Assembly: GCA_022827165.1 (NCBI GenBank)
Contig: JAJDTN010000316.1
Location: 1-52,618 of the forward strand
Length of the DNA stretch: 52,618 nt
DNA from: Candidatus Latescibacterota bacterium
GTDB taxonomy: Bacteria; Latescibacterota; UBA2968; UBA8231
Direction: 5' to 3'
Both the position numbers and the translations under genes were made by a program. A model generated the notes under the pieces. It did no database searches. It was not told where the DNA came from and saw only the letters and a program-made list of their open reading frames with translations. Of the stretch, positions 9,418 through 40,194 are shown one piece after another (position 1 is the stretch's first letter; the number at the start of each line of letters is the position of its first letter).

Positions 9418-10532
9418 CAGAAGTTGTAGGTGAAGTGGAGGTCCACCCGGTTGGCCGTGCCGTCGTCGAGTCCCTTGTACTCGGTCGTCCAGTGGATGTA
9501 CTCGATGGCGGCCTGGAAGCTCTTCCACGGCCGGTAGCGGTTCACCACGTAGAAGGCCTGATTCGCGGTACGACCTCCTTCGGGCACGCCATCTTCTTCA
9601 GGCGTGTCCATCATCGCCCCGGCGTACAGCTTCCAGCCGTCGCCCGGCTTGACCAGGAGATGCACCCAGCCTCCGTAGGAGTCGATCTCCTCGCCGGTCT
9701 CCTTGTTGACGCCCTGGCCGATGCCGCCGCGGATGTCGGAGAGGTTGCTGCCCGTCCAGCCTTCTCCCTCGACTGTCAGCCTGTCGGCGGGGGATACCGA
9801 GAAGTCCACTCCCACCACCATGGAGGTGAAGCTGGTATTGCCACCCACGGGAGTGGCCGTCTTCTCCGACCCCCGGTGGGCCCAGGCTCCGGCCTTGAAC
9901 TTCGCCTGCTCCATCCCGACCCGCGCCTGCACGAAGGGCACCGTCGCCTCCGAGCCGTCGAGGGTCCCGTTCTTGTCCAGGTCCTTCTTGTCCACCGCCC
10001 CGGTCTGGCCGAGGGCGACCGCGGCGGAGACGCCGGTCCCCGGATTCCAGGTGAGCCGCGCCTGGGGATGCCGGTCTCCGAGGTTGCCGGTGTTCCACAT
10101 CATGCCGTCGTTGTTGGCCGCCGGGAACAGGGGAGAGACAAGGTCCCAGGTCTGGCCGGCCAGGAAGTGCCAGTCCCCACTCTTCAGGTTGAAGTATGCC
10201 TTGCGCAGGCGCAGGACCTGTCGCGATTCGCTGCCGCCGTTCTGGAAATCGGTCTCGATGACCCCGCTGATCTCGCGGCCCCCCCCCAGGTCGACCGGGG
10301 CGAGCTTGGCCCCGAGCCGGGTCAGCCGGGGGTGGATGGTCAGGTTGCCCTTGTTCTCCGCGCCCGGTGCCTCTGGCAGCACCCAGTTGGGATACTGATG
10401 GTGGCTCAGCTTGGAGTCGTCGAGGACGGCGTCGAAGCGGACGAACCCGTAGGGGGTGAGCTCACCGGCGGGGGCAGGGCCCATCCAGCCTGGAAGACAG
10501 CCCAGCACGGCAACTGCAAGCACCTTCTTCAC
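9417..10532 (-). CDS. Outer-membrane porin
   Basis: 371 residues. I chose GTG at 10532 because AAGGAG lies 8 bases upstream and the protein then begins with a good signal peptide (VKKVLAVAVLG, cleavage near PAPAG). Upstream open frame is GC-driven noise. The mature chain is a general or DcaP-like porin: ELTPYGFVRFDAVLDDS at the N-terminus, RLTRLGAKLAP, WHFLAGQTWDLVSPLFP, alternating strands, and a terminal Phe strand (VDLHFTYNF). It is the first gene of a six-gene minus-strand run, and would admit the small molecule handled by the binding protein and MFS carrier downstream (inference). Confidence 0.85.
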   Translation of the reverse strand: MKKVLAVAVLGCLPGWMGPAPAGELTPYGFVRFDAVLDDSKLSHHQYPNWVLPEAPGAENKGNLTIHPRLTRLGAKLAPVDLGGGREISGVIETDFQNGGSESRQVLRLRKAYFNLKSGDWHFLAGQTWDLVSPLFPAANNDGMMWNTGNLGDRHPQARLTWNPGTGVSAAVALGQTGAVDKKDLDKNGTLDGSEATVPFVQARVGMEQAKFKAGAWAHRGSEKTATPVGGNTSFTSMVVGVDFSVSPADRLTVEGEGWTGSNLSDIRGGIGQGVNKETGEEIDSYGGWVHLLVKPGDGWKLYAGAMMDTPEEDGVPEGGRTANQAFYVVNRYRPWKSFQAAIEYIHWTTEYKGLDDGTANRVDLHFTYNF

Positions 10533-10686: not shown

Positions 10687-10914
10687 CTAGATCTCGACGG
10701 TCTCCTTCTCGCCGTCGCGGTTGCGGAACCGGTCCACGTAGGTCTGGCCCTTGTCATACGCTTCGGAGACTCCGCGGCGCACCGAGTCGCGGGACTCGCG
10801 GCCGCTGCGGGGAGCGAGCAGGATGCCGGCGGCCAGTCCGAGGGCCAGGCCGCCCATCAGGCCGGCGCCGAAGAGTCCCATGGAGAGCCCTATGGTCTTG
10901 GCATGACGATTCAC
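10687..10914 (-). CDS. YtxH-like small membrane protein
   Basis: 75 residues. GTG at 10914 follows AGGAGG by 6 bases, an almost ideal ribosome binding site; longer open frames upstream lack one. One glycine-rich transmembrane helix (GLFGAGLMGGLALGLAAG) is followed by the YtxH-type ILLAPRSGRESR and a charged amphipathic tail ending in DGEKETVEI. YtxH-like proteins are linked to general stress and envelope homeostasis; the molecular role is unknown. It has its own promoter candidate and lies 154 bases before the porin operon. Confidence 0.75.
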   Translation of the reverse strand: MNRHAKTIGLSMGLFGAGLMGGLALGLAAGILLAPRSGRESRDSVRRGVSEAYDKGQTYVDRFRNRDGEKETVEI

Positions 10915-10974
10915 GCGATCCTCCTGTGAGATGGGTAGAGCCTGGTTTCGGGAGATCCGCATACCCATTTGGCT

Positions 10975-11004
10975 AGGATAACCGCAACTCGCCGATTTCG
11001 TCAA
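10975..11004 (-). promoter_or_regulatory. Sigma70-like promoter of the YtxH-like gene
   Basis: Minus-strand TTGACG (11004-10999) and TATCCT (10980-10975) with an 18-base spacer lie in the short gap between the PhyH stop and the YtxH-like GTG, in a locally AT-richer stretch. The predicted leader is about 55 bases. Confidence 0.5.
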
Positions 11005-11009
11005 TCGGA

Positions 11010-11786
11010 TCATTCGCCGATGACACTGGGCCTGTGCTGGTTGCCGCACAGCAGTTGGGTCGCCAGATCGCCGGGGTCGTCGATCCTGGCGAGCTGGCTG
11101 CGCATGTCCTCCTGGGGGATGAACCACGGCATCAGGTACATGCCGAGCAGGCAGGAACGCGGCCGGTCGCTGCGGTTCGGCCGCGACGTGTGCCACCAGG
11201 CGCCGTGGGCCACCACCACCGAGCCGCGTCGCCCGGTGAGGATCTCGCCCTCGGGGCGCCACCGGTCGGTGGGGGCGTCGGGCGGGTGTCCCTTGCGGTG
11301 CGAGAACGGGATGGTCCCGGTGGCCCCGTTCTCCTCGGTGAAGTCGTCGAGGAGCCACATGGTCTGACCCGCGAACCGGCCCGCCGGCCAGGGCGGTTTC
11401 AGGGACCAGAAGGGATAGTCGGCGTGCCAGCCGATGGCGTCGTGGCCCGGGTAGATGGTGTTGGCCGTCCACGAGGAGCACATGATGTCGTCGCCGAGGT
11501 AGCGCTTCCAGAGCGACACGATCAGCGGATGGCACATCAACTCCAAAAAGACCGGGTCCTTGTGGGCAATGCCGCCGACGCGCTGGTGCCTGCTCTCGCG
11601 GGCGCCGTCGTCGATCTCCGCCTGCAGGAGTCCTTCGAGAATGGTGCGCGCCTGGTCCGCCCGTTCCGGGGAGATCACGCCCTGGAGGACGCAGTAGCCC
11701 CGGTCGTCGATCTCGGCGATCACCGCGTCGAGGTCGATGGAGTTGGTGGCTGCGTTCATGGGCTGGCCGTGAGGCTGCGTTTGCAT
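11010..11786 (-). CDS. Phytanoyl-CoA dioxygenase (PhyH) family Fe(II)/2-oxoglutarate oxygenase
   Basis: 258 residues from ATG at 11786; a second ATG at 11759 has no better binding site. PhyH-type double-stranded beta-helix proteins hydroxylate small molecules using Fe(II), 2-oxoglutarate and oxygen. The iron facial triad is visible as His121-x-Asp123 (IGWHADYP) and His199 (WWHTSRPN); Arg209 or a neighbour would bind 2-oxoglutarate. NGATGTIPFSHRKGH is the usual loop before the distal half. The substrate is unknown; bacterial members act on ectoine, mitomycin-like or halogenated metabolites and many are orphans. It is divergent from the metal exporter 49 bases away, so they may share a control region. 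Confidence 0.88.
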   Translation of the reverse strand: MQTQPHGQPMNAATNSIDLDAVIAEIDDRGYCVLQGVISPERADQARTILEGLLQAEIDDGARESRHQRVGGIAHKDPVFLELMCHPLIVSLWKRYLGDDIMCSSWTANTIYPGHDAIGWHADYPFWSLKPPWPAGRFAGQTMWLLDDFTEENGATGTIPFSHRKGHPPDAPTDRWRPEGEILTGRRGSVVVAHGAWWHTSRPNRSDRPRSCLLGMYLMPWFIPQEDMRSQLARIDDPGDLATQLLCGNQHRPSVIGE

Positions 11787-11835
11787 TTCCGTTGACTCCG
11801 TTCGGCGGTTGACGCGTTCACCCTTGGAGAAGAGC

Positions 11836-12798
11836 ATGACCTTGGCGCACTGGGTACGACCGCTCGTGCTCGCGGCCGTGCTGGCCGCGGCTCCCGCCGC
11901 GGTGGAGGCCGGGACCCCCGACGACCACGGCGATGAGGGGACGTCGGGTCTGGAGAACACCCTCAAGGAGATGGTGGGCTCCGAAGAGCTGAGCGCCGGC
12001 ATCATCCTCGGAGCCCTGGCGCTGGCCCTCCTGGCCGGCGCCGCCCACGGCCTGGAGCCGGGCCACGGCAAGACGATCGTCGCCGCCTACCTCGTGGGCA
12101 GCCGCGGCACCGTGAGCCATGCCATGTTCCTCGGGGGCGTGGTCACCTTCACCCACACCTTCAGCATCCTTCTCCTGGGCCTGATGGCCCTCTTCGCCAC
12201 CCAGTGGATCGATTACAAGGAGATCATGCCGTGGATGGGCACGGCCTCCGGGCTGCTCATCGTGGCCCTGGGCGGGTGGCTGCTGGTCAACCAGCTCAGG
12301 GGCCCCGGCCATGGTCACCACCATCACCACCACGGCGACCACGACCATGGGGGAGGCCACGACCATGGAGACCATCACCACGAGGATCATGACCACGGGG
12401 ATCACGAGCACGGCCACGGAGAGGGTCATCACCACGGCCATGGCCACAGCCACGAGATTCCCGCCAAGGTAACCCTCGGGAGCCTGCTGACCCTGGGCAT
12501 CTCCGGAGGGATCGTGCCCTGTCCGGGGGCCCTGGTGATCCTGCTGCTGGCCGTGGGCCTGGACCGGATCGCCTTCGGCCTGGTGCTCCTGGTGGTATTC
12601 AGTCTCGGCCTGGCGGCGGTGCTCATCGCCGTGGGCGTGCTCTTCGTCAAGGCGCGGCCGCTGGTGGAACGCTTCTCCGGCGACGGCAAGTGGATCCGGC
12701 GTCTTCCCATGGCGAGCTCGGCCTTCATCATCTGCGTGGGCATCGCCATCACCTTGAAGACGCTCACGGACATGGGCGTGCTGGACATCCACCTGTAA
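11836..12798 (+). CDS. Nickel/cobalt exporter, RcnA/NiCoT-like, with His-rich loop
   Basis: 320 residues. ATG at 11836 with GGAG 7 bases upstream is preferred over TTG at 11809. A signal-like hydrophobic segment (1-25) is followed by about six helices. AHGLEPGHGKT (70-80) is the family metal-site motif, and GISGGIVPCPGAL (221-233) is the second-half counterpart. Between helices 3 and 4 lies a cytoplasmic or periplasmic loop, residues 158-207, made almost wholly of His, Asp and Gly, as in RcnA-type efflux proteins. The role is most likely Ni/Co export or high-capacity metal handling in the inner membrane. No RcnR-like regulator is adjacent. Confidence 0.85.
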   Translation: MTLAHWVRPLVLAAVLAAAPAAVEAGTPDDHGDEGTSGLENTLKEMVGSEELSAGIILGALALALLAGAAHGLEPGHGKTIVAAYLVGSRGTVSHAMFLGGVVTFTHTFSILLLGLMALFATQWIDYKEIMPWMGTASGLLIVALGGWLLVNQLRGPGHGHHHHHHGDHDHGGGHDHGDHHHEDHDHGDHEHGHGEGHHHGHGHSHEIPAKVTLGSLLTLGISGGIVPCPGALVILLLAVGLDRIAFGLVLLVVFSLGLAAVLIAVGVLFVKARPLVERFSGDGKWIRRLPMASSAFIICVGIAITLKTLTDMGVLDIHL

Positions 12799-12816
12799 GT
12801 CGGCCAGGGACCGCCA

Positions 12817-14235
12817 TCACTTCGGCTTCCGGGCCACGGCGACGAGGGCCAGCCCCGGGAGCGGCACGACGCGGTCGAGGATCCGCCAGAGCCACACGAG
12901 GGAGTCGAAGGTCTTGAGCTGAATCAGGCCGAGCCTCCTCCTCCTCAGGATCCTGCCGCTCACGAGCCACGGCAGGCAGCTGATCCGGTTGAAGTCGAAG
13001 AGCTTCTCGACCTCGAGTCCCGCCGCTTCGCAGCTCTCGCGCAGGAGCTTCTTCGAATAGCGCCGCCGGTGTCCCAGGGCCCGGTCGAGGGCCCCCATGA
13101 GCAGGCGGCCCTGGGGCACCAGCACGATGGCGGTCCCTCCCGGCTCGAGGGCGCGGCGGATGTTGGCCAGCCCCCGTTGCGGCTCCGCCACGTGCTCCAG
13201 GACGTTCAGGCAGACCACCGTGTCGAAGCTCTCTTCCAGCGTGTCGAAGTCCCCCTCCTCCTGCACGTCCAGGCGCCGCACCTCGACGTGGGGATAGCCC
13301 CGGAACCGGTTCTCCAGGTACTCCAGGTGCAGCTCGTCCGAGTCGGTCACGGCGTAGCGGTCCGTGGGGATCAGCTGCAGGGTGATGGTGCCCAGTCCCG
13401 CCCCGATCTCGAGGACGCGGTCACCCACGTGGGCGCGGACGGCGTCGGCGATCCAGCGGTTGAACCGGTGCGTCCGGGAGAGCGAGTGGAGAAGGGTGTG
13501 GCCGTAGCGCTCCTCGTAGAGGTCGTCGACGATGCGGTACCAGACCATGGTGGCGAAGGCCTTCACGCCGTCCCACCAGGTGATCTTCTTGCCTTCCTGG
13601 TAGCTCCGGCCCCGGTAGGAGATGGGGACCTCGTAGATCCGGCAGCCCCGCCTGGCGAGCTTGGCCGTGAGCTCGGGCTCGATGCCGAACCGGTCGCTGC
13701 GGATGGGGAGGGACTTGAGGAGGCTGGTCTTGACGACCTTGTAGCATGTCTCCATGTCCGTCAGATTGAGATTCGTGAAGGCATTCGACACGAGGGTGAG
13801 GAACTGGTTGCCCACGGAGTGCCAGAAGAACAGGACCCTGCGGTACTCGCTGCCCGCGAACCGCGAGCCGTAGACGACATCGGCGTCGCCGGCCAGGAGC
13901 GGCCGCAGGAGCCGGGGGTAGTCGGCGGGGTCGTACTCCAGGTCGGCGTCCTGGATGATGCACAGGTCTCCCGTGGCCAGCCCGATGGCGGTGCGGATCG
14001 CCGCCCCCTTGCCCTGGTTGGTCTGGTGGAAGTGAAGGCGGACATGCTCCGGATGAGCCTGGGCGAGTTCCTCGAGGATGTCCCGGGTGCCGTCGGTGGA
14101 GCCGTCGTCGACGATGACGAGCTCCCTCTCCAGGCTCCCGGGAAGCGCCTGGGCCAGCACCAGGGAGACGATCTCGCGGATGGTGAAGCGCTCGTTGTAC
14201 GCGGGGATGAGGATGCTCAGCTTCTGGAAAGTCAT
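12817..14235 (-). CDS. GT2 glycosyltransferase fused to a class I SAM-dependent methyltransferase
   Basis: 472 residues. Residues 5-240 are a dolichyl-phosphate-mannose-synthase-like GT2 domain: LSILIPAYNERFTI, DDGSTDG (43-49), NQGKGAAIRTA and the metal-binding QDADLEYDP (95-103). After a linker, residues about 255-470 are a Rossmann methyltransferase with LEIGAGLGT (275-283) and a VCLNVLEHV acidic-loop region. The C-terminus carries a hydrophobic segment. It probably acts on a lipid-linked or nucleotide sugar in cell-surface glycan synthesis, coupling sugar transfer and methylation (inference). The fusion is a recurrent architecture. No clear ribosome binding site precedes ATG at 14235. It converges with the metal exporter, 18 bases between stop codons. 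Confidence 0.88.
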   Translation of the reverse strand: MTFQKLSILIPAYNERFTIREIVSLVLAQALPGSLERELVIVDDGSTDGTRDILEELAQAHPEHVRLHFHQTNQGKGAAIRTAIGLATGDLCIIQDADLEYDPADYPRLLRPLLAGDADVVYGSRFAGSEYRRVLFFWHSVGNQFLTLVSNAFTNLNLTDMETCYKVVKTSLLKSLPIRSDRFGIEPELTAKLARRGCRIYEVPISYRGRSYQEGKKITWWDGVKAFATMVWYRIVDDLYEERYGHTLLHSLSRTHRFNRWIADAVRAHVGDRVLEIGAGLGTITLQLIPTDRYAVTDSDELHLEYLENRFRGYPHVEVRRLDVQEEGDFDTLEESFDTVVCLNVLEHVAEPQRGLANIRRALEPGGTAIVLVPQGRLLMGALDRALGHRRRYSKKLLRESCEAAGLEVEKLFDFNRISCLPWLVSGRILRRRRLGLIQLKTFDSLVWLWRILDRVVPLPGLALVAVARKPK

Positions 14236-21722: not shown

Positions 21723-22997
21723 ATGGACGAGCGCCTGGAGGTGCGTCTCGGCGCCCCGGCGCGTTTCGACTGGCGCGTCGAGCGCGTTACCGACACCGCC
21801 GGGCACCGCCTCTCCGGGGGCAGCGGCGCCAGCGGCTGGGGCTACAACCAGTCCAACCTCGTTCGCCGCGGCGACGACCTCTACGCCCTCAGTTGGCGCG
21901 ACGACCTCACCCTGTGCGTCTTCCGGCGGGTGTCCGAAGGGACCTGGGAGGCGGGGCCGGTGCTGCCGCCCGTCCCGCAGAACGGCAACCTCCTGGTCGA
22001 CTCCTCCGGGCGCCTGCACGTCATCGGCGGCGAGTGCGCCAGCTGGCACGCGCGCTTCGACGAGCCCGGCCGCCTCGACCGCTGGGAGCTGCGCCGCCGG
22101 GTCAGCGCCGACTCCCGCTTCGGCGCCGCCATCGACGAGCGCGACCGCGTGCTCGTCGCCGGGGGGCTGCCGCGCCTCGCCTGGTACGTCCTCGACGGCT
22201 CCGCCGACTTCGCTGCCGCCGCCGAGGGCCAGATCCCCCACGCCACCGCCCGCGGATACCAGTTCGTCCTCTTCCGGGACGGCGCCGGCCACACCTTCTG
22301 CTCCGACGACTACTTCGTCGCCGGCGACCGCTTTCCCGACCAGCGCATCACCGTGCCCGACCCGGCCACGGGCGGCACCCGCACGAAACGCACGCCCAAG
22401 GGCATCTACCCGGTCCTGAAGGCATACTACTACTACAATCCGGATCTTCTGGGCTCCCCGGGGGACTGGCGGTGCACCCTGGTCAGCGACGTGAGCGACA
22501 CCTGGGACGAGGACTCGGGGGCGCGGGGCACCACCGACCACCAGGACCTGTTCGCCGACGACGAGGGGCTGATCCACCTGGTCTACTACGAGAACCGCCA
22601 GCCGGCGCGCAGCGTGTGGGCCGCCATGGAGCAGGACGCCGCCCGCTCGCGCCTCTACCACGCCGTGGGACCGCCGGGCGGGCCCTTCCGCGCCTGGTGC
22701 CTGGGCGCCTTCAACAGCGGCCGCCTCTACCAGACCCCGGACGGACGCGTCCACTACCTGCTCACCCGGGGCCGCCGCTCGGCGGCCGAGTCGGTGTGGT
22801 ACGCCGCCGGCGAGCCCGGCGACTGGGGGCGCATCAGCGAGCCGGTGCAGCTCGAGGGCATCGGGCCCCTGTGGCACCTGTTCCTCAACTCGACCCGCGC
22901 CGGCGGCACCCGCGCCGGGGTGATCGACGCGTACTGGACCGGCCCTTACGGCGGCCACAGCAACGAGGTGTTCTACGGGTGCCTGAAACCCTCGTGA
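21723..22997 (+). CDS. BNR-repeat-like beta-propeller protein
   Basis: 424 residues, no signal peptide. Repeated blade-like stretches are seen, for example LVDSSGRLHVIGGE, AAIDERDRVLVAGGL, DLFADDEGLIHLVYYENR and YQTPDGRVHYLLTRG, consistent with a six- or seven-bladed BNR_4-like propeller. Aromatic residues are plentiful, so a carbohydrate ligand is plausible, but no sialidase Arg triad is evident. Start ATG at 21723 is 3 bases after the GPP34 stop, implying coupled translation. Its last 25 codons and the 13-base spacer to the next gene recur 6638 bases downstream as part of the direct repeat around the inserted block. Confidence 0.65.
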   Translation: MDERLEVRLGAPARFDWRVERVTDTAGHRLSGGSGASGWGYNQSNLVRRGDDLYALSWRDDLTLCVFRRVSEGTWEAGPVLPPVPQNGNLLVDSSGRLHVIGGECASWHARFDEPGRLDRWELRRRVSADSRFGAAIDERDRVLVAGGLPRLAWYVLDGSADFAAAAEGQIPHATARGYQFVLFRDGAGHTFCSDDYFVAGDRFPDQRITVPDPATGGTRTKRTPKGIYPVLKAYYYYNPDLLGSPGDWRCTLVSDVSDTWDEDSGARGTTDHQDLFADDEGLIHLVYYENRQPARSVWAAMEQDAARSRLYHAVGPPGGPFRAWCLGAFNSGRLYQTPDGRVHYLLTRGRRSAAESVWYAAGEPGDWGRISEPVQLEGIGPLWHLFLNSTRAGGTRAGVIDAYWTGPYGGHSNEVFYGCLKPS

Positions 22998-23079
22998 GAG
23001 GTCTGCCATCATGAACGTCTGCATCGTCGGCGCCGGCATCTTCGCCATGGCCGCCGCCCTGGAGCTGCGCCGGCGCGGC
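22924..23079 (+). repeat. Left copy of the direct repeat bounding the inserted block
   Basis: From 22934 to 23079 (146 bases) this sequence aligns without gaps to 29572-29717 with 7 mismatches; ten further weaker bases (3 mismatches) extend it left to 22924. It contains the last codons of the BNR-like gene, the spacer, the ribosome binding site and the first 23 codons of the FAD oxidase gene. Identity stops abruptly at 23080. Confidence 0.95.
23011..23079 (+). pseudogene. Truncated 5' end of the FAD-dependent oxidase gene
   Basis: The first 23 codons of the oxidase gene, complete at 29649, remain here. The dinucleotide-binding motif reads GAGIFA instead of GAGIFG, so the third glycine is lost, consistent with decay after loss of function. 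The frame happens to stay open into the protease gene, so this remnant start could produce a chimeric protease with 32 extra N-terminal residues. Confidence 0.9.
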
Positions 23080-23106
23080 GTCTTCGAATACAAGGAGATC
23101 CATGTG

Positions 23107-24120
23107 ATGAGACTGACTACAGGAAGCTGTCTGCCGCTGTTGCGCGGTGTAGTTCTCCTACTCGTTGGCGCGAGTACGGCAAGTGGCCAAACGGCTCAGG
23201 ATATCGCCAAGCAGGCCTTCAGCTCTACTGTTTTGCTTGTCATGGAGGACGCAAACGGCCAACCGCTTTCCCTTGGCAGCGGCTTCTTCATCGGTGCCGG
23301 ACAGATCGCCAGCAACCTACATGTCGTCGAGGGAGCAGTACGCGGATACGCTAAGCTGGTCGGTCAGAAGAGGAAGCACGACCTTGAAGGCATCACAGCA
23401 GTTGATGCCGAACGAGATCTGGTGGTGCTCAAGATTGCAGTCGCGGGAGCGCCGGTCCTGGCTCTTGGCAACAGCGACGCCGTGCAGGTTGGCGAGGCTG
23501 TCTACGCCGTAGGGAATCCCCAGGGATTGGAGGGGACCTTCTCTCAGGGAGTGGTGAGCAGCATCCGAGAAGTCGGCACTGACAGGCTGCTCCAGATCAC
23601 GGCTCCGATCTCGCCCGGTAGCAGCGGCGGCCCCGTTCTCAACGATAGGGGTGAAGTGATCGGTGTTTCCGTTGCCACCTTCAGAGGGGGACAGAACCTG
23701 AATTTCGCCATCCCTTCAGATTACCTGAAGACGCTACTTGGGAAGACAGGGCCTGTGAAGCCACTTGCACAAGGGAAACCCGTCAAGGTCGAGCCTTCGA
23801 TCTTGGCAGGCCTCGGGGGACGTAGCTTGGAAGGGGTCGTCGGTAGCCATTTTTCTTGGAGTGATTTTGCAATAATCGGACACTATACGTTCTCTGTCCG
23901 AAATCAGCTGCGCGAGCCGGTCAAGGATGTTGTCTGCTTAGTCATCTTCTTTGCACAGGACGGGCTACCAATCGAGACTGAGATGGTAACCATATACGGC
24001 CCAATCGGGGGGAATTTGGCCCGGCGTTCACCCGAAATGGGTCGTCTTGAAGCAGATCAGGTACGCAATCTCACAGCGAAGACAGAGATACGAATTCTGG
24101 ACTTCAGGCTAGTTGACTGA
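23107..24120 (+). CDS. Secreted trypsin-like serine protease (S1C/HtrA-like, no PDZ domain)
   Basis: 337 residues from ATG at 23107, which has AAGGAG 9 bases upstream inside the inserted block; the in-frame ATG at 23011 belongs to the oxidase remnant. A signal peptide covers about residues 1-27 (LLRGVVLLLVGASTASG). The catalytic triad is visible: His72 (SNLHVVEG), Asp104 (AERDLVVLK) and Ser173 (PGSSGGPV). After the protease domain (about 35-215) there is no PDZ; instead about 100 residues with beta-rich HYTFSVRNQL and VKDVVCLVIFF form an unrecognised C-terminal domain. It would act in the periplasm or outside. Its co-carriage with two cytoplasmic-looking proteins is odd for one system. It is likely driven by the host operon promoter. 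Confidence 0.85.
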   Translation: MRLTTGSCLPLLRGVVLLLVGASTASGQTAQDIAKQAFSSTVLLVMEDANGQPLSLGSGFFIGAGQIASNLHVVEGAVRGYAKLVGQKRKHDLEGITAVDAERDLVVLKIAVAGAPVLALGNSDAVQVGEAVYAVGNPQGLEGTFSQGVVSSIREVGTDRLLQITAPISPGSSGGPVLNDRGEVIGVSVATFRGGQNLNFAIPSDYLKTLLGKTGPVKPLAQGKPVKVEPSILAGLGGRSLEGVVGSHFSWSDFAIIGHYTFSVRNQLREPVKDVVCLVIFFAQDGLPIETEMVTIYGPIGGNLARRSPEMGRLEADQVRNLTAKTEIRILDFRLVD

Positions 24121-24195
24121 CCGTGTCGGAAGGTTCCCTACTCCTATCCATGACCTCGAAGAGCATTAGGCGGCTTCGTCTGTGAGAACAATGTC

Positions 24196-24912
24196 GTGAG
24201 GAAAACCTGGGATCCCTTCTGGATAAGCGCATTTCAAACGGAATTCGTACCTGAGCTGAAGGCAATCGGTGATATACTTGAGAGCCGACTGCTACCGACT
24301 CTTGGGAGAGACGACATCGAGGAAGAGTCAGACCAGATCAGGGATAGAGCCTTTGAGCGGTACATGTCGATGCCAGGTACCGGAGAGGAGGATCCGTCCA
24401 GTCTCGCTGACCGAGCCGAAAGAGCTGGAATCTCACATTACATTCTCATGAGCGGGATTCGCCAAGGGATGCTCAACCTGTTCGCAGCAGCACTCTATCA
24501 TGCTTTCGAACAACAACTCATGCTTCTTCATCGGGGGAGCGTCCTGTACAAGGAGGAGGAAGATGAATCAAGGAAACTCAGCCTGCGAGAATTCGGCCGT
24601 CGACTGAGGGAGTGCGGCATCGACATAAGGGAATTCTCTTCTTGGGTGAAGATAGATGAACTGCGCTTGGTGGCGAATACCGCCAAACATGGCGCGGGAG
24701 ATTCGTCACACAAACTCCGGCAGCTCCGGCCGGACATGTTCCAGAATCCACACATCTCAGGTTTCTCGCAGTTCATATCTGGCTCCACTTCACAGGTACT
24801 TCAGCCACTCGTCGGCGAGGGTCTATACGTGACGGTCCAAGATGTCAGTGATTACCGTGATCATCTGGTACGGTTTTGGTCGGAACTTGCCAATGCAGTG
24901 GAACGCAATTGA
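24196..24912 (+). CDS. Unrecognised 238-residue protein of the inserted block
   Basis: Starts at GTG 24196 (MRKTWDPFWISAF); the ribosome binding site is poor and no better start preserves the N-terminus. No signal or membrane helix is seen. The protein looks mainly alpha-helical, with DIREFSSWVKIDELRLVANT followed by AKHGAGDSSHKLRQLRPDMF. The central NTAKHGAGDS stretch resembles the conserved Arg/Asn...His region of HEPN-like helical proteins common in defence and toxin loci, but the R-to-H spacing is longer than the usual Rx4-6H, so this is only a hint. It lies 53 bases before the large ATPase gene and probably works with it. Function unknown. Confidence 0.75.
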   Translation: MRKTWDPFWISAFQTEFVPELKAIGDILESRLLPTLGRDDIEEESDQIRDRAFERYMSMPGTGEEDPSSLADRAERAGISHYILMSGIRQGMLNLFAAALYHAFEQQLMLLHRGSVLYKEEEDESRKLSLREFGRRLRECGIDIREFSSWVKIDELRLVANTAKHGAGDSSHKLRQLRPDMFQNPHISGFSQFISGSTSQVLQPLVGEGLYVTVQDVSDYRDHLVRFWSELANAVERN

Positions 24913-24965
24913 CCTAGGGATTTCGTATTCCTCTTCTCCCGAGGACTCTTCAGAGAGCGAACTGG

Positions 24966-27900
24966 ATGAGTCGAGTGAACGCCAAGACCAATAAACGAAA
25001 ATCATTCGTCTTGAGGTTGGCCCAAGAGAACCGGGACTTCTACGGATCGCGGGATGGTCGCGGCACACTACGCGCATTCGAGTTGGCCTTCGAGAATCCA
25101 TGGGTATACCTGTTTGAACTGGTGCAGAATGCACTCGATGCAGGCGCACGCTCCATCGCCGTTCGGCTTGGAGAAGCTGGCGACGCTCTGACCTTCCAGC
25201 ACGACGGGGGTCATTCGCTCGAAGAGGAGGACGTCGAGGGACTCTCGAAGGTCTTCCGGTCGACCAAGGGCGCCTCGTCCGTGGGTTTCATGGGTATCGG
25301 CTTCAAGAGCGTATTCGGGAGGTTTCAGGAGGCCCGAGTCTCTGGGAGCGGCTGGACATTTCGCTATGAGACCACCCAAGTGGTGGGTGAGGAGTATGGA
25401 GACGTACAACGCGATCTTCTGGGGGCGGTCATCCCGGTCTGGGATGACTCGATTCGGGCACCCGAACGTGGTTTCACGACCCGTTTCGAGATGCATCGGC
25501 CGACGGAAGAAGGAGCGGATGTCCAGGCGGACCTGGCGCACTTTCTTCCCGAGGGAGATCGCACCCTACTCGCGATCTTGGCGGCGTCCGGGCTGAAGCG
25601 TCTGGAAGTGAACGGTCAGGCATGGGAATTGAGCATCAGTGAAGAACCCGGTGAGAGCTTGGTGGCGACCGCGTCTACGCACGACGAGAACCGGCTCTGG
25701 CGGCTATTTCGGGCGCAATTCCGGCCTTCCAGGGAAGCGGTTGCCTGCTTTCTCGAACACAGGAGAATCCAGCCTTCCGAGGGAGAGCGCGAGCAGGTCT
25801 ACGCTGAAGCGGCCAGAGATCGCCAGCTGTTGGGCGTGCTGCCCCTGGACAACGACGGCATGCCCAAGCCACCGGCCAGGGGACGGGTCTGGGCCACCTT
25901 GCCAACAGAGGTTTTTCTGCCTTTCGGCCTGCACATCAATGCCGACTGGCTGTTGAACATCTCCCGGACCGGCCTCCGGGAGATCGAGGACAATCCCTGG
26001 CAGCGCGGTATCGCAGACAGCATCGCGGGGATATTGGCGGGCTTCCTCGAGTGGTCCGCTGATACGTTTGCGGAGCCCGACAGGGCCAAGGCGGCCTTCA
26101 AGGCCCTCGCGTTGCCATCGCCCGAAGCTGGAGGACTTGAAGCGCTGCTTGCCGAGGAGCGCTGGCTATCGGGGTTGCGGAGTCGCCTTGAGGAAGCTGC
26201 GGTGTTGCCCGTCTGGACCGAGGAGATCGGCACGCTGGCGTTCGCGACACCGGGCGATACCGTGGTCCCGCCCGCCCCGTTGGCGAGAGCATTCAGCAAG
26301 TATCCGGAGCTGCAACCGGCGGTTCTCTTGAGAAGGTCCGTGCTCATGGGCGATGTGCTTGGTCCCGATGCGCTCAAGTTTCTGCGCCGAATTGGCCTTC
26401 TCGGAGAGATGTCGCCGCAAGAATTGGAGCAAGTGTGGCAGGGTGGTCTGGAAGGTTGGTGGAAACAGTTCTCCGGAGAGCGCGAGAGCCGGCGGCGCCT
26501 GCTTTTTCGCCTATGGGCTGCTGTCGCCGATCTGCTTTCTGATGAGGTCTGGCGGGAGGTCGATCTTCATTGCATTCGTTCCGTGGTGGGCAAATGGCAC
26601 CCGGTGACCGAGGTCGTATTCCTCAACGAGAGGCTTCCAACCAAGAGGGAGCCGGGCGGAGCCCAAACCCGCGGATTTGTGGAGCCGTTCGTTCCGGACG
26701 AGAACCGCTTGGGGGACGAATCGGTTGCCACGCTTCGCCAACGGAGAAGCAACGAGCCTGAGCAGACGATCCTGTCGCAAGCCTGGGATTGGATCGAGAG
26801 CCACGCCCGCGGCATCAGTCTACAGGAGGTCGTGGAGGCTGCCGTGAACGATCTGAAGTCATCGGGAAATCTGGACTGGTCGGTGCTCGTACCACTCGGG
26901 CACTGGTCGAAGCACCGTAGTCGTTCTGACCTGTTGACTCACGTGCTTGTGGAATCGGAGAGCGGTCAGCGGGGTCTGCCGGTCGTCGAGGCACTCCTGG
27001 CAACCCCGTATGTCGAATACGGTCGGGATCTCGCCCTCCTGTTTCGGGCGAACCCGGCGATTTCGTCGGCATACTTGGACCAAGACCCAAAGCACGCAAG
27101 TTCAAGGGAATGGCGGGCGTTCTTCGAGAAAGCTGGCGCAAGGGGGGGGCTCGAAGTTCGTACTGTGGAGAAATGGGTTGGCCGAGGATGGGGAAAAGGG
27201 CGTGTTGCGGAGTTTCTGGGCTGGGAGGTAAGTGCGGTGCCTTGGCCGAATCAGGCAGGCTACAAACTTCGGGACTTCGACATCGAGCCAAGTCTTCCCG
27301 GTCTGGATGCACCAAAGAAACTGCGAGCGGCTCTCGCTGCTTGGATAGAGGATGGTTTCCAATTCCTCCATGCCACGGGGCGGCGGCAGTGCTCGTATTC
27401 CTATTACGGTTCCAACACCCGCCTTGGAACCGCGAGCGCCTGGGTCATCAAGCTGTCCAAACTGGCATGGGTACCTTGCGAAGATGGCGAACTCCGGCGT
27501 CCGCAGGACGTACTTCCATCGCCGGACCCGGCACGGGAGGACGCACCGGTTGCGGAACTCTCCTCCGAACTTCTGTCCGTATTGGAGGAGGAAGGCGTGA
27601 ACTTCGGTACGGCCATTCCGGAGGCTACATCGCTCCGCAGACTGGCGGCAGTAGGCTCTCGACTCGATGCAGAAGAGCTGGCGCAGCTTCTCTCCGAGTG
27701 CCGCGAACAGGTGGCGACGGACACGGACTGGGCCTTATTTGAACGAGCTCTCCAAGAGCTTACAGTGGCGTCGAGTGACAACCAGCGTTTCCCGCTCGAC
27801 CGGATCGTCCGGTGGGTCGGGGGTAGCCACCGAGGCGGGCTGGGCGGTTGGGTCGTACCGCTGGATCGGATCGAAGACGTGTTGCGAAGGGAGTTGGAAC

Positions 27901-29537
27901 ATCCCGACTTCCCCCGCGATTTCCCGGACGCTACCACCGGCGGCCAGGCTCTGGATTACATCCGGGAGGTCTGGAAGCGTGCCCGTTCGTCTCCCGAAGG
28001 GTTGGCCAACGAGGTGCGCGACCTGCTCCCGACCGCCTATGCCTACTGCTTGGAAGACTGTGCAGAGGATGCGGCGCTCTCTGAACGATGGGAGGAAGCT
28101 GCAACGGAGGCGGTGGTCTTTGCTGACCGGGAGTGGGTCGTATTGGCCGAGGCCGAAAACACCTATTTGGACGACATCGAAGAGCGGCGATTTCTCCCAA
28201 GCCAACTGCAGGTGCGAATTGTCACGGGCGGACACCTGGGTCACTCGAAGTCCCAGCAGATTCGCACTGCGGAAGCGATTTGCCTGCCGCTTCTGTCGTC
28301 TTCGGTAACGATGGAGTGGCATTTCGGAGAAGAGACGTCTGTCTCCGATGATTGGGTCTTCAGGCTCGACCTCACCTGGCAGCTTCTCCAACGGGTTCGT
28401 GGGAGCGAGCGGGAGGAGAGCGACGGGGCGGGAATCGAGACCGAGAAGCTCCCGAGGCTGACCTGCGTTCATGAGCTTGCTCTCGATGTCAGTGTCGGGA
28501 GCGTCGCCGCCGAGCGCGTACCCGTGAACGCCCGCCTGCACGAACGCGCTCTGACCGTAGCGGGGCGCCCGGTTCAGTTCGCGTCCGACGCGGCCAAGGA
28601 GTTACTCCGAGAGTATTCCTTCGGACAGCGCGCGGACCTTGCTGCCGACCTCACTGGCATGTTGACCGCAATCGACGCCGAACAGGATTTCCGTTTGGCT
28701 GCGGATAAGTTCCGGCGCTCCCATGCTCCCAAATTCGAAATGCCGCCAGAGTTTCGGCCGGATCTGGAGCATGAGGAAGCAACCGGCCGGGGAGACGAGC
28801 CGGCTGGACCCGCCAGTACCGCTGCACCGACCGGGCACGAAAGGCCGGAAGCGGATGCTCTGACTGACCAAGGGCCCACTTCCGGCACTCCTGGGCGTGG
28901 AGAATCTGATCTGAGAGGCGATACCAAGGCGGTCGATGCCCAGGGGCAACCCGTGAAGCCCGAGCACAAGGAATCTGGTGCAACGGGCGGCTCTTACACT
29001 ATGGACAGAGCTCTTTCCCAACAGAACGCCTTGGCCGATCAGTTGAGGAGTTCGCTGAAAGGGGAGATCGCGCCGAACCGTGAAGAGGACGATCTAGGCG
29101 AGACCGGGATGTCCAACGAAGACGGGGCCACGGCTCTCGGGGACGAAGAGTACCGAGAGGTTGCGGCGCGGTACGAGAGAGAGGCAGGCCGCGAGCCGGA
29201 ACTTGGCGATGCCCGTCAAACCGGCTGGGATATCCGCAGTGCGGACCCGAGGACCAAGGCGGTCCGCCTGATCGAGGTGAAGGGGAAGGGCCGTCCATGG
29301 GATGAAGACGAGGTCGTGGAGCTGACGCGAGCGCAGATAGGCAAGGCGTTTGAAACGACGGACAGGCAGGCGACGGATTCGTGGTACCTCTATGTAGTGG
29401 AGAAGACGGATGGCGGTGACTACCAAGTGCTCCCCATCGCAAATCCGGTTCGCGTTGCCGCCAAGTGGATACTTCTCGGCAAAGCGTGGCGGATGGTCGC
29501 GGAAAGCCCCAAGTCTGTTGCCGGCCCTCGAGACTGA
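24966..29537 (+). CDS. Giant sacsin/Hsp90-type ATPase protein with C-terminal DUF3883 domain
   Basis: 1523 residues, the largest gene here. Residues about 40-200 form a GHKL ATPase: N-box ELVQNALDAGA (Glu51, Asn55, Asp58), G1 box HDGGH (Asp80, with His replacing the usual last Gly), and the sacsin-like ATP-lid and G2 box STKGASSVGFMGIGFKSVF (99-117). About 1,000 residues without recognisable motifs follow, then a low-complexity charged linker (about 1255-1395). Residues about 1400-1510 match DUF3883, with GWDIRS (Asp1422) and LIEVKGKG (Glu1437, Lys1439) forming a PD-(D/E)XK-like core and a later Gln-containing helix (RAQIGKAFE). GHKL ATPases joined to restriction-type nuclease folds occur in prokaryotic antiphage loci. 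I infer nucleotide-driven conformational control of a nuclease or nucleic-acid-binding end. No known named system is matched. Confidence 0.85.
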   Translation: MSRVNAKTNKRKSFVLRLAQENRDFYGSRDGRGTLRAFELAFENPWVYLFELVQNALDAGARSIAVRLGEAGDALTFQHDGGHSLEEEDVEGLSKVFRSTKGASSVGFMGIGFKSVFGRFQEARVSGSGWTFRYETTQVVGEEYGDVQRDLLGAVIPVWDDSIRAPERGFTTRFEMHRPTEEGADVQADLAHFLPEGDRTLLAILAASGLKRLEVNGQAWELSISEEPGESLVATASTHDENRLWRLFRAQFRPSREAVACFLEHRRIQPSEGEREQVYAEAARDRQLLGVLPLDNDGMPKPPARGRVWATLPTEVFLPFGLHINADWLLNISRTGLREIEDNPWQRGIADSIAGILAGFLEWSADTFAEPDRAKAAFKALALPSPEAGGLEALLAEERWLSGLRSRLEEAAVLPVWTEEIGTLAFATPGDTVVPPAPLARAFSKYPELQPAVLLRRSVLMGDVLGPDALKFLRRIGLLGEMSPQELEQVWQGGLEGWWKQFSGERESRRRLLFRLWAAVADLLSDEVWREVDLHCIRSVVGKWHPVTEVVFLNERLPTKREPGGAQTRGFVEPFVPDENRLGDESVATLRQRRSNEPEQTILSQAWDWIESHARGISLQEVVEAAVNDLKSSGNLDWSVLVPLGHWSKHRSRSDLLTHVLVESESGQRGLPVVEALLATPYVEYGRDLALLFRANPAISSAYLDQDPKHASSREWRAFFEKAGARGGLEVRTVEKWVGRGWGKGRVAEFLGWEVSAVPWPNQAGYKLRDFDIEPSLPGLDAPKKLRAALAAWIEDGFQFLHATGRRQCSYSYYGSNTRLGTASAWVIKLSKLAWVPCEDGELRRPQDVLPSPDPAREDAPVAELSSELLSVLEEEGVNFGTAIPEATSLRRLAAVGSRLDAEELAQLLSECREQVATDTDWALFERALQELTVASSDNQRFPLDRIVRWVGGSHRGGLGGWVVPLDRIEDVLRRELEHPDFPRDFPDATTGGQALDYIREVWKRARSSPEGLANEVRDLLPTAYAYCLEDCAEDAALSERWEEAATEAVVFADREWVVLAEAENTYLDDIEERRFLPSQLQVRIVTGGHLGHSKSQQIRTAEAICLPLLSSSVTMEWHFGEETSVSDDWVFRLDLTWQLLQRVRGSEREESDGAGIETEKLPRLTCVHELALDVSVGSVAAERVPVNARLHERALTVAGRPVQFASDAAKELLREYSFGQRADLAADLTGMLTAIDAEQDFRLAADKFRRSHAPKFEMPPEFRPDLEHEEATGRGDEPAGPASTAAPTGHERPEADALTDQGPTSGTPGRGESDLRGDTKAVDAQGQPVKPEHKESGATGGSYTMDRALSQQNALADQLRSSLKGEIAPNREEDDLGETGMSNEDGATALGDEEYREVAARYEREAGREPELGDARQTGWDIRSADPRTKAVRLIEVKGKGRPWDEDEVVELTRAQIGKAFETTDRQATDSWYLYVVEKTDGGDYQVLPIANPVRVAAKWILLGKAWRMVAESPKSVAGPRD

Positions 29538-29561
29538 TCCAGGGAGGTCTGAGGTGGCGAC

Positions 29562-29635
29562 TCGACACCTGCTGGACCGGCCCTTACGGCGGCAACAGCA
29601 ACGAGGTGTTCCACGGGTGCCTGAGGCCCTCGTGA
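29562..29635 (+). pseudogene. 3' fragment of the BNR-like gene
   Basis: Carries the last 24 codons and TGA (29633-29635) of the BNR-like gene with three amino-acid changes in the well-aligned part (His to Asn, Tyr to His, Lys to Arg) relative to the complete gene. There is no start or remaining gene body here. Confidence 0.85.
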
Positions 29636-29717
29636 AAGGTCTGCCATCATGAAGGTCTGCATCGTCGGCGCCGGCATCTTCGGCATGGCCGCCGCCCTGG
29701 AGCTGCGCCGGCGCGGC
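29562..29717 (+). repeat. Right copy of the direct repeat bounding the inserted block
   Basis: Ungapped counterpart of 22924-23079 at an offset of 6638 bases. In this copy the oxidase start is intact and the BNR-gene end is the non-functional fragment. It restores ribosome binding site (GAAAGGT, 8 bases before ATG), start codon and first 23 codons of the oxidase. Confidence 0.95.
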
Positions 29718-30788
29718 CACGCGGTGACCCTGGTCGAGCGCGGCGAGATCCCCAACCCGGAGGCGTCGAGCACCGATGTCTCCAAGGTGATCCGCCGCAC
29801 CAACTACCCGAACGAGATCTACGTCGAGCTGGTGACGCGGGCGGCGGCCCAGTGGCGGGAGTGGCACGAGCGCACCAGCCGCTCGATCTACTTCCAGACA
29901 GGCAAGCTGATCGCGGTACGCGGCTTCGGACCCGACCACGAGGCCCTGACCGGCTGGGAGACCCTGAGCCGCCTGGGCAAGGATGTCACCGAGCTGACGG
30001 TGGAGGAGGTGAACCGGCGGTTCCCCCAGTTCTCCGTCGGCGCCGAGGACCGGCTGTTCCACGATCCCTGGGCCGGCTACCTGCGCAGCGGCCAGGCCCT
30101 GGCCGACCTGGCGGGTCTGGCCCGCGAGGCGGGAGTGGCGATCCGGGAGAACACGCAGGTGACCGCCGTCGAGGAGACCGCTTCCGGCGCCAGGGTGAGA
30201 TGGGCCTCGGGGTCCCGCGACTGGGACCGCGTGATCGTGGCCGCCGGCCCCTGGATCGGGGAGCTGCTGCCGGCGATGAAGCCCCGGGTGCGCATCACGC
30301 GGCAGCAGATGGCCTTCTTCGTCCCGGTGGACCCGGCCCCGTTCGAGCGCGGCCGCTTCCCCGTGTGGTCGATCCTGTCGCCCGGCAACCTCTGGTACGG
30401 CTTCCCGCGGCTGCCCGAGGGGTTCGTCAAGATCGCCGAGGACAGCAAGGTCGATGACGCCGCCGTCGACGTCTCCCGCGAGCCGACGCCGGAGTTCCTG
30501 GACTGGGCGCGGGAGTTCGCAGCCGAGCGCATTCCCGCCCTCGGCGCCGAGATCGTCGGCGGCCGGTCGTGCCTCTACACCAACATGGCCGACATGGAAG
30601 ACGAGCAGTTCGTCATCGACTGGGCCCCGGGGTGCGAGCGGGTGCTGATCGCCGGCTGCGGCTGCGGCCACGGCTTCAAGTTCGGGGGCGCCATCGGCCC
30701 GGTGATCGCCGACGCCCTGGAGGACCGAGAGAACCACCTCGGAGATCTGTTCAGGATCGGAAACCGTTTCGAGAAGGGAGCGGCGTGA
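29649..30788 (+). CDS. FAD-dependent amine oxidase, sarcosine-oxidase-like (DAO family)
   Basis: 379 residues from ATG at 29649. The Rossmann motif GAGIFG (Gly7, Gly9, Gly12) and LVERG mark FAD binding. Near the C-terminus, SCLYTNMADMEDEQFVID followed by GCGCGHGFKFGG matches monomeric sarcosine oxidase and N-methyltryptophan oxidase; Cys308 corresponds to the residue that binds FAD covalently. It would oxidise a secondary amine such as an N-methyl amino acid, releasing an aldehyde and hydrogen peroxide. The true substrate is unknown. It shares a TGATG overlap with the downstream dipeptidase-like gene. Before the insertion it lay 13 bases after the BNR-like gene. Confidence 0.88.
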   Translation: MKVCIVGAGIFGMAAALELRRRGHAVTLVERGEIPNPEASSTDVSKVIRRTNYPNEIYVELVTRAAAQWREWHERTSRSIYFQTGKLIAVRGFGPDHEALTGWETLSRLGKDVTELTVEEVNRRFPQFSVGAEDRLFHDPWAGYLRSGQALADLAGLAREAGVAIRENTQVTAVEETASGARVRWASGSRDWDRVIVAAGPWIGELLPAMKPRVRITRQQMAFFVPVDPAPFERGRFPVWSILSPGNLWYGFPRLPEGFVKIAEDSKVDDAAVDVSREPTPEFLDWAREFAAERIPALGAEIVGGRSCLYTNMADMEDEQFVIDWAPGCERVLIAGCGCGHGFKFGGAIGPVIADALEDRENHLGDLFRIGNRFEKGAA

Positions 30789-38625: not shown

Positions 38626-40194
38626 ATGATGGCGCGGCTCTCCGGCCTGGTCCTGCTGCTCCTCGGCGCCTCCGTCCAGAACGGCTCGGCCCGCGAGGAT
38701 GCCGTTCTGAGGGGCGAGGCCGTCCTGTCCGGCGGCATCGCCTGGTCGCCCGACGGCGCCTGGCTGGCGGTGCCGGGCAGCTCGGGCATCTGGCTCCACG
38801 ATGCGCGCAGCGGACGGCTCGAGATCCATCACGACGCGGGTCTGGCCAGGTCCGTTGCGTTCTCGCCGGACAGCGGGACCCTGGCCGCCGGCATCGGCAG
38901 CGAGGTCCGGCTGTGGGAGGTCGACACGGGCCAGCCGAAGGCCGGCTGGGACGGCCAGGCCTTCGTCCGGTCCGTTGCGTTCTCGCCGAACGGCGGGACC
39001 CTGGCCGGCGGCGGAGCGGACCACGCGGTCCGGTTGTGGGAGGTGGAGACCGGCCGGCTCGAGGCCACTCTCGAAGGACATGCGGGCGAGGTCGAGTCCG
39101 TTGCGTTCTCGGCGGACGGCCGGACCCTGGCCAGCGGCGGCGGCGACTACACCGTCCGGTTGTGGGATCTGGAGACCGCCGCGCCGAGAGCCGTCCTTCA
39201 GGGGCATTCGGGCCGGATCGAGTCCGTCGCGTTCTCGCCGGACGGCAGGACCGTGGCCAGCGGCGGTTGGGACGGGACCGTCCGCCTGTGGGATGCGGAG
39301 ACCGGACAGCCCGGGGCCATTCTGGAAGGGCGGGGGAGGTACGGGTCCGCCGGCTGGGTCTGGTCCGTAGCGTTCGTGGATGACGGGACGGTGGTCAGCG
39401 GCCATGACGACGGGATCCGCCTGTGGGATGCGGAGACCGGCCGGCTCGAGTCCACCCTCACCCTCGACGGACACACGAGCTGGGTGTCGTCGGTGGCGGT
39501 CTCTCCCGACGGCCGGACCCTGGCCAGCGGCAGCCGGAGCGGCGGGGAGAGCCGCAGCGACGGCCGGTTCTACACGGTGCTGCCGTGGGATCTCCGGCCC
39601 CGGGCAAGGGTGGAGGCCAGGGTGACGGATCCGGGGGCCGCGGGCCTGACCATCGATTTCTCCAGGAGCATCTCGGGCCGCCGGCCGCACTACGCCTGGA
39701 GCGCCGTCACCGACGCGTCCGGGCGCCTGCGACTGACCCTCTTCGGCGGAGACACCGGTCTCTACCAGGCCCGCGCCCTGACTACCGCCGGCGAGGCGGT
39801 GGCCAGTTGGTACAGCCTGCCCATCAACAGTCACAGGCTGGAGTCGCTGAACCTGACCGGTCCGGTGGCGGCCGGCCCGGCTCCGGCGGGCAAGGCGGCG
39901 GCTTCCGGGGAGGCGGCCGGGAGCGAGTTGCACCCGAACACGCCGAATCCCTTCAACGCCGGCACGCAGATCGCCTACCGGCTGGCCGACGCCGGCCCGG
40001 TGCGGCTGAGGATCTACAATCTCCTGGGACAGCCGGTGCATACGCTGGTGGACGAGGTCCAGCCCGCGGGGGAGCACCGGCTGTCCTGGGACGGACGCGA
40101 CCTGCGCGGCGCCCCGGTGGCGGCGGGCATCTATGTCGTACGGCTGGACCATCCCGGAGGCGTGCAGACCCGGAGAGTGATGTGCCTCAAGTAG
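38626..40194 (+). CDS. Secreted WD40-repeat protein with FlgD-like C-terminal sorting-type domain
   Basis: 522 residues from ATG at 38626 (a second ATG follows directly). A signal peptide spans about 1-22. Residues 30-330 hold six to seven WD40 blades, each with a VAFSPDGRTLASGG-type strand and VRLWDxETG end. After a linker, residues about 435-522 form a FlgD-Ig/T9SS-type tail: HPNTPNPFNAGTQIAY, VRLRIYNLLGQPV, and GIYVVRLD. Such tails are typical of exported proteins in FCB-related candidate phyla and may direct cell-surface attachment. The WD40 part presumably binds proteins outside the cell. It begins a run of three secreted proteins. Confidence 0.88.
   Translation: MMARLSGLVLLLLGASVQNGSAREDAVLRGEAVLSGGIAWSPDGAWLAVPGSSGIWLHDARSGRLEIHHDAGLARSVAFSPDSGTLAAGIGSEVRLWEVDTGQPKAGWDGQAFVRSVAFSPNGGTLAGGGADHAVRLWEVETGRLEATLEGHAGEVESVAFSADGRTLASGGGDYTVRLWDLETAAPRAVLQGHSGRIESVAFSPDGRTVASGGWDGTVRLWDAETGQPGAILEGRGRYGSAGWVWSVAFVDDGTVVSGHDDGIRLWDAETGRLESTLTLDGHTSWVSSVAVSPDGRTLASGSRSGGESRSDGRFYTVLPWDLRPRARVEARVTDPGAAGLTIDFSRSISGRRPHYAWSAVTDASGRLRLTLFGGDTGLYQARALTTAGEAVASWYSLPINSHRLESLNLTGPVAAGPAPAGKAAASGEAAGSELHPNTPNPFNAGTQIAYRLADAGPVRLRIYNLLGQPVHTLVDEVQPAGEHRLSWDGRDLRGAPVAAGIYVVRLDHPGGVQTRRVMCLK
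38851..39375 (+). repeat. Imperfect tandem repeat encoding WD40 blades
   Basis: The core TCCGTTGCGTTCTCGCCG and variants recur at 38851, 38971, 39097, 39223 and (more diverged) 39364, giving spacings of 120, 126, 126 and 141 bases, all multiples of three. It reflects recent blade duplication and is fully explained by the protein. Confidence 0.85.

Follow-up and report, generated by a model that had tools for sequence, protein, structure and literature searches.

A defence-like gene block between two copies of a 156-bp host segment in a Latescibacterota genome

Introduction

How does a block of foreign genes come to lie between two neighbouring host genes, leaving both of them whole, when it encodes no recognizable recombinase? 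This question is raised by a contig of a Candidatus Latescibacterota bacterium (JAJDTN010000316.1, assembly GCA_022827165.1), all 52,618 bp of which were analysed here and are referred to as the window. The original prediction, made from these letters alone, described a low-GC block inserted between near-identical direct repeats of host sequence, called the mechanism unusual and named, as one option, that a circle bearing host sequence had integrated by a single crossover. We examined the anatomy of the repeat, the corresponding site in relatives, the cargo and its homologues elsewhere, and the distribution of the differences between the two repeat copies.

Results

Self-comparison of the window revealed an ungapped direct repeat of 156 bp on the forward strand, with a left copy at 22924..23079 and a right copy at 29562..29717 (spacing 6638). 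The copies are 94% identical, differ at 10 positions when compared base by base, and match far beyond chance (blastn E 1.15e-61). The predicted repeat of 146 bases with seven mismatches is therefore real and indeed ungapped, but it is the core of a longer unit. As proposed, and as borne out by the open reading frames and the base-by-base comparison, the unit comprises the end of the upstream gene (its final 74 bp including the stop codon), a 13-bp spacer and the 23 opening codons of a FAD oxidase. The insert is thus bounded by direct copies of a host segment, the arrangement that insertion-duplication by a single crossover requires.

Both host genes are complete, in agreement with the original prediction. 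The upstream open reading frame (21723..22997, forward strand, 424 aa) ends at 22997 within the left copy. It belongs to a conserved family of unknown function with at least 62 homologues, five of which are labelled Latescibacteria, Latescibacterota or Handelsmanbacteria by their sources. Its earlier label of BNR-like found no support, as the protein matched no Pfam family at E 0.1. The downstream gene, a FAD-dependent oxidoreductase of the DAO family (29649..30788, forward strand, 379 aa; PF01266, 1.1e-51), starts at 29649 within the right copy. Each copy also carries a redundant remnant: the 5′ end of the oxidase gene on the left (23011..23079, forward strand), which lies in frame with the first inserted gene, and the 3′ end of the upstream gene on the right (29562..29635, forward strand), recognized by sequence comparison with relatives. 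In the left oxidase remnant, a glycine of the GxGxxG motif has become Ala at codon 12.

Between the copies lies a block of 6,482 bp (23080..29561, forward strand; GC 0.597, 97% coding). Its three genes share the orientation of the host genes and have GC contents of 0.566, 0.526 and 0.617, versus 0.73 and 0.71 for the host pair. The predicted low-GC three-gene block is also apparent at third codon positions, where GC3 is 0.61, 0.57 and 0.69 in the block and about 0.95 (0.955 and 0.945) in the two neighbouring genes.

The first inserted gene (23107..24120, forward strand) encodes an HtrA/Do-like trypsin-type serine protease of 337 aa with a signal-peptide-like N-terminus. The longer open reading frame matched Trypsin_2 at 4.1e-28. 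Further matches were to degP_htrA_DO (1.8e-32, under the curated cut-off of that family), to phrog_11383 (3.8e-33) and, for the protease part only, to the PADLOC model RT-Protease_XI (3e-19). The ATG at 23107 appears to be the best start candidate, judging by eye from a Shine-Dalgarno-like AAGGAG and the signal-peptide-like N-terminus; the host-derived ATG at 23011 simply happens to be in frame. An automatic gene caller may fuse the oxidase remnant and the protease (23011-24120) into a protein of 369 aa.

The second gene (24196..24912, forward strand) encodes an all-helical protein of 238 aa with a possible HEPN fold. In a family alignment of 30 rows, H165, N161 and K164 are invariant and A160 and R157 nearly so. 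The catalytic motif of HEPN proteins is R-x4-6-H, and this spacing does not occur in the 238-aa protein, where seven residues separate R157 from H165. Searched against a phage collection, the 238-aa protein and the protease each hit one family with no assigned function.

The third and largest gene (24966..29537, forward strand) encodes a TmtA-like (Tiamat-like) protein of 1,523 aa with a sacsin-type ATP-binding N-terminus and a NOV_C C-terminus. It scored above the cut-off for NF047352 (1.2e-15) and PF13020 (1.1e-7). Seven PADLOC TmtA models, from a library that displays no cut-off, matched at E <0.1 (best 2e-31, weakest 2.8e-4), and their strongest stretches lie at the N-terminal and C-terminal ends. 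The protein resembles Tiamat in these two parts and differs in its setting, since the tmtA-like gene here adjoins genes for a helical protein and a protease. A literature search for the TmtA domain combination returned no match, which we do not take as absence from print. Taken by its family matches, the block looks like a defence cassette and may have an anti-phage role.

Nothing in the block resembles machinery for its own movement. None of the three genes, which fill 97% of its length, matched a recombinase, integrase or transposase family in Pfam, PADLOC, curated protein families or phage families, in line with the original prediction. The block ends have only their first 3 bases in common (by eye over 60 bases) with no evident terminal inverted repeat, and a repeat search of the window found no inverted pair of 20 bp or more linking them. 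The block thus has neither the transposase nor the terminal inverted repeats of a transposon, and lacks the integrase gene of an integrase-type genomic island. In the window as a whole, ARAGORN detected no tRNA and an Rfam scan at the gathering threshold was empty. A promoter scan of 22900-29800 gave no hit where 1.4 were expected by chance, a result that is uninformative for a high-GC organism. No DNA match to the block was found among plasmids.

To look for the empty site, genome contigs were scanned with a 34-row alignment of the upstream gene, which yielded 13 loci. Two of these are close relatives of the window: L002, in a genome titled Gemmatimonadaceae COS4_bin_9 (G002), and L001, a 4.9-kb contig of genome G001. 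The upstream gene is 91% identical in both. The block is absent at the same site in each of them. G002 carries a single copy of the 156 bp, with the upstream gene and the oxidase 13 bp apart; L001 also carries a single copy, with a spacer of 11 bp. No oxidase match was found within the stretches fetched for the remaining 11 of the 13 loci, so that both relatives holding the gene pair (2/2) show one copy and no host loss. Contig C80 of G002 is collinear with the window from 1 to 52618 at 87-94% identity, and the block is the sole gap above 0.2 kb. Compared with G002, no host bases were lost at the insertion target. A 480-bp query (22600-23079) against 25 genomes of the family of G002 returned one full-length match, in G002 itself. 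L001 (1-4941) is about 89% identical to the window, yet its genome is titled Acidobacteria and stands outside the phylum list of G002; the contig is probably mis-binned.

The single-copy empty site that the original prediction had named as a check is therefore present in two relatives, supporting the view that a foreign block was inserted and host sequence duplicated in the process. On this sequence comparison, the insertion is near certain, as a gain in the lineage of the window; clean loss of the block from both relatives is the less likely course. Because the flanks are common to the empty-site genome, nothing mobile arrived with them. The repeat or its junctions might in principle have been misbuilt from metagenome reads; we consider this highly improbable given that the copies differ at 10 sites with private changes in each, that the flanking sequence follows G002 collinearly throughout the window and that the block holds an intact gene set.

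We then asked whether such repeats travel with the cargo. With tmtA as query, 3 of 64 genomes of the phylum of G002 (E 1e-20) and 2 of 396 genomes drawn from the phylum of G001 (E 1e-50; at most two candidates scored per genome listed) were positive. In none of these five loci (L035, L036, L037, L028 and L029; 18-20 kb each) did a direct repeat reach 40 bp, and neither the 238-aa protein nor the protease was found beside tmtA in the stretches fetched. L028 and L029 are distant (27-37% identical), and L037 is a decayed fragment (9018-10195 of that locus, contig C82 of G043) with internal stop codons. The absence of repeats at these loci indicates that the repeats belong to the insertion event and not to the cargo. 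The 1,523-aa protein, used as a single query sequence, found no match in 13 genomes, and neither did the protease in the compared loci at E 1e-5.

The 238-aa family is present in 2 of 64 genomes, at loci L016 and L017, with neither tmtA nor the protease nearby in the stretches examined and with no repeats in the layout seen in the window. Two dispersed repeats (65 and 46 nt) flank the homologue in L017, with far copies of 65% and 78% identity. The L016 homologue (10748-13436) has a type III restriction-like helicase as its neighbour, which gives the family a second setting of defence-like character. Viral contigs held no relatives of the 238-aa protein and a single weak 40% match to the TmtA C-terminus. 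Plasmids yielded 16 records with distant homologues of the 238-aa protein (24-40% identity) and a single weak TmtA match. A 13,186-base contig (P0177) carries a TmtA homologue that is 96% identical over 76% of the query, ends early and runs on into unrelated sequence; it may be a broken copy of the cassette described here.

These comparisons also bear on a site-specific, integrase-type element with a long gene-restoring attachment region that later lost its integrase. Some known elements restore the end of a gene by means of a duplicated segment, and the two matches to phage-collection families would suit such an origin. We nevertheless judge it very unlikely, as three genes without a recombinase match make up nearly the entire block, the window has no tRNA and the five other tmtA loci are free of repeats.

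A search for further repeat pairs covered 815,320 bases (the window, some 449 kb of G002 and 17 further loci) and admitted direct pairs of 60 bp or more with 85% or more identity, 0.8-40 kb apart. Of the 10 resulting rows, the pair of the window alone encloses DNA whose GC lies 0.09 or more below that of the sequence carrying the pair. The pair on C77 is a common coding sequence for a C-terminal domain, three rows on C80 reflect a partial duplication of two genes, and three rows on C78 resemble tandem gene duplicates, judged from their spacing alone. The remaining rows belong to L011 and L017, and, with the C77 and C80 rows inspected, no second pair of the kind seen in the window was found.

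Two side observations emerged from these comparisons. In G002 (C80, about 45.0-49.8 kb; L041 5016-6248 and 9171-9827), two host genes, which we take to be YfbR-like and phytanoyl-CoA-dioxygenase-like, are present again in decayed form behind two open reading frames of 508 and 303 aa that are blank in Pfam and PADLOC. This second copy is 81-93% identical in pieces and may stem either from an earlier insertion accompanied by duplication or from a tandem duplication that has decayed. Within the window, a 76-nt repeat occurs five times at 38820-39534; its copies, mostly spaced by 120-126 bp, are 66-79% like the reference copy and probably sit inside a gene for a repeat-domain protein.

To ask whether the two copies were identical at birth, we polarised their differences with G002 and L001 as outgroups. 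Nine of the 10 could be assigned: five changes are private to the left copy (22931, 22933, 22956, 22988 and 23045) and four to the right (29567, 29612, 29636 and 29654). Position 22987 was left unpolarised, 29636 was polarised by G002 alone because the spacer of L001 differs, and the oxidase part of L001 was aligned by eye. Each copy has one redundant half once the block is in place, so that drift from an identical start should concentrate in the redundant halves; two copies drawn from separate lineages should instead show equal numbers of changes in used and redundant parts. Between the window and G002, divergence in these genes is about 0.20 at fourfold sites and about 0.08 at all sites.

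Drift from identical birth expects about 6.7 redundant and 2.3 used changes, versus 3 and 6 observed. On these nine changes only, the likelihood ratio test gave p 0.0085 (0.004-0.0185 over four variants) and the binomial test p 0.011 (0.004-0.030 over variants), the three extra variants omitting the spacer or adding 22987 either way. The fit prefers a split between the copies about 0.7-0.8 times as deep as that from G002, combined with a recent insertion. The counts thus mildly favour a two-lineage origin of the copies over a duplication that began identical, although allelic recombination at either copy after the insertion could mimic this signal. In the redundant coding parts, all three changes (3/3) alter an amino acid, including the lost glycine of the FAD motif, which fits some drift since the insertion.

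An identical birth is what a staggered break or a replication template switch would entail, in which a foreign fragment was captured, fill-in duplicated the 156 bp and the copies later diverged by drift or by recombination with alleles of other strains. The final anatomy would be the same, Ku is encoded by G002, and the uniformly amino-acid-altering changes in the redundant parts agree with it. The distribution of the nine changes is not what drift alone would produce, and a rescue requires later allelic recombination, so that we regard this course as possible but doubtful.

Discussion

The absence of host loss relative to G002, together with the restoration of both genes, is the textbook outcome of insertion-duplication. 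The explanation we prefer, to which we give about an even chance, is homology-anchored single-crossover integration of DNA carrying a short chromosome piece of a related strain. The incoming DNA would have consisted of the cassette adjoining a short piece of the same locus (the end of the upstream gene and the start of the oxidase), most simply circularised by trimming and re-joining of a linear fragment. One crossover within the homologous piece would then place the cassette between two copies of it. Homologous recombination needs no enzyme borne by the element and would presumably depend on RecA. Both neighbouring genes stay intact, and the cassette may be expressed from the host operon. This explanation must postulate a donor with exactly this neighbour sequence; no donor, circle or junction was found in another genome.

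The genome of G002, used as a stand-in for that of the window, encodes ComEC and Ku, compatible with DNA uptake and end joining. This evidence is not specific. ComEC is present in 10 of 14 control genomes as well, and a search of 5 genomes found Ku in only 1.

Laboratory precedent comes from E. coli, where, in one study, 56 of 60 selected clones had part of the homologous locus duplicated, over 109-950 bp in 14 sequenced clones (PMC3240628). The authors attribute these duplications to a circle, shortened in its homology and integrated by one crossover, that probably arose through cutting, trimming and re-circularisation. The present case shares the foreign DNA between two short copies of a host segment, the lack of host loss and a duplication, at 156 bp, within the range observed in that study; it differs in being a natural event in which no vector or circle is seen and the copies are 94% rather than fully identical. 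The single-crossover circle of the original prediction therefore stands as the best option with laboratory precedent, although unproven; its description of the mechanism as unusual was overstated, because only housekeeping recombination is needed.

The same study assigns 4 of the 60 clones to homology-facilitated illegitimate recombination, a deletion-forming route. At our locus, a linear fragment anchored on the oxidase side would have been joined illegitimately at its left end, 156 bp inside the start of the anchor. This would likewise yield a donor right copy and a recipient left copy, as the change counts suggest, and shares the one-sided homology anchor and the gain of foreign DNA. As described there, however, that route generally, if not obligatorily, deletes recipient DNA (PMC3240628), whereas here host sequence was duplicated and none was lost relative to G002. 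Together with its rarity among the clones, this makes the route unlikely in our view.

A study of 80 species describes gene turnover without integrases, through homologous recombination at core flanks (PMC5635113). Such turnover likewise places accessory genes between host genes without an integrase; the difference is that a double crossover operates there, whereas 156 bp were duplicated at our locus.

We also considered, as a very unlikely possibility, that an integrase-free, promoterless defence cassette moves between related strains with a short host stretch, by an undescribed route duplicating about 150 bp. If true, such cassettes would enter operons and leave genes unbroken; a second insertion of this kind was not encountered in this analysis.

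The locus is probably a neat gene acquisition and not a revolutionary one, because ordinary recombination can produce such a layout. Its anatomy matches insertion-duplication, which ordinary recombination is known to produce; here it comes with defence-like cargo and an exact duplication of the host segment. It provides a clean natural example, complete with the empty site, of how accessory defence-like genes enter a gene cluster without an integrase and with the neighbouring genes unbroken. The drift test on the halves of the copies offers a simple way to ask whether duplicated segments were identical at birth or came from two lineages, and, applied over many insertions, it could measure how often plain homologous recombination spreads defence genes.
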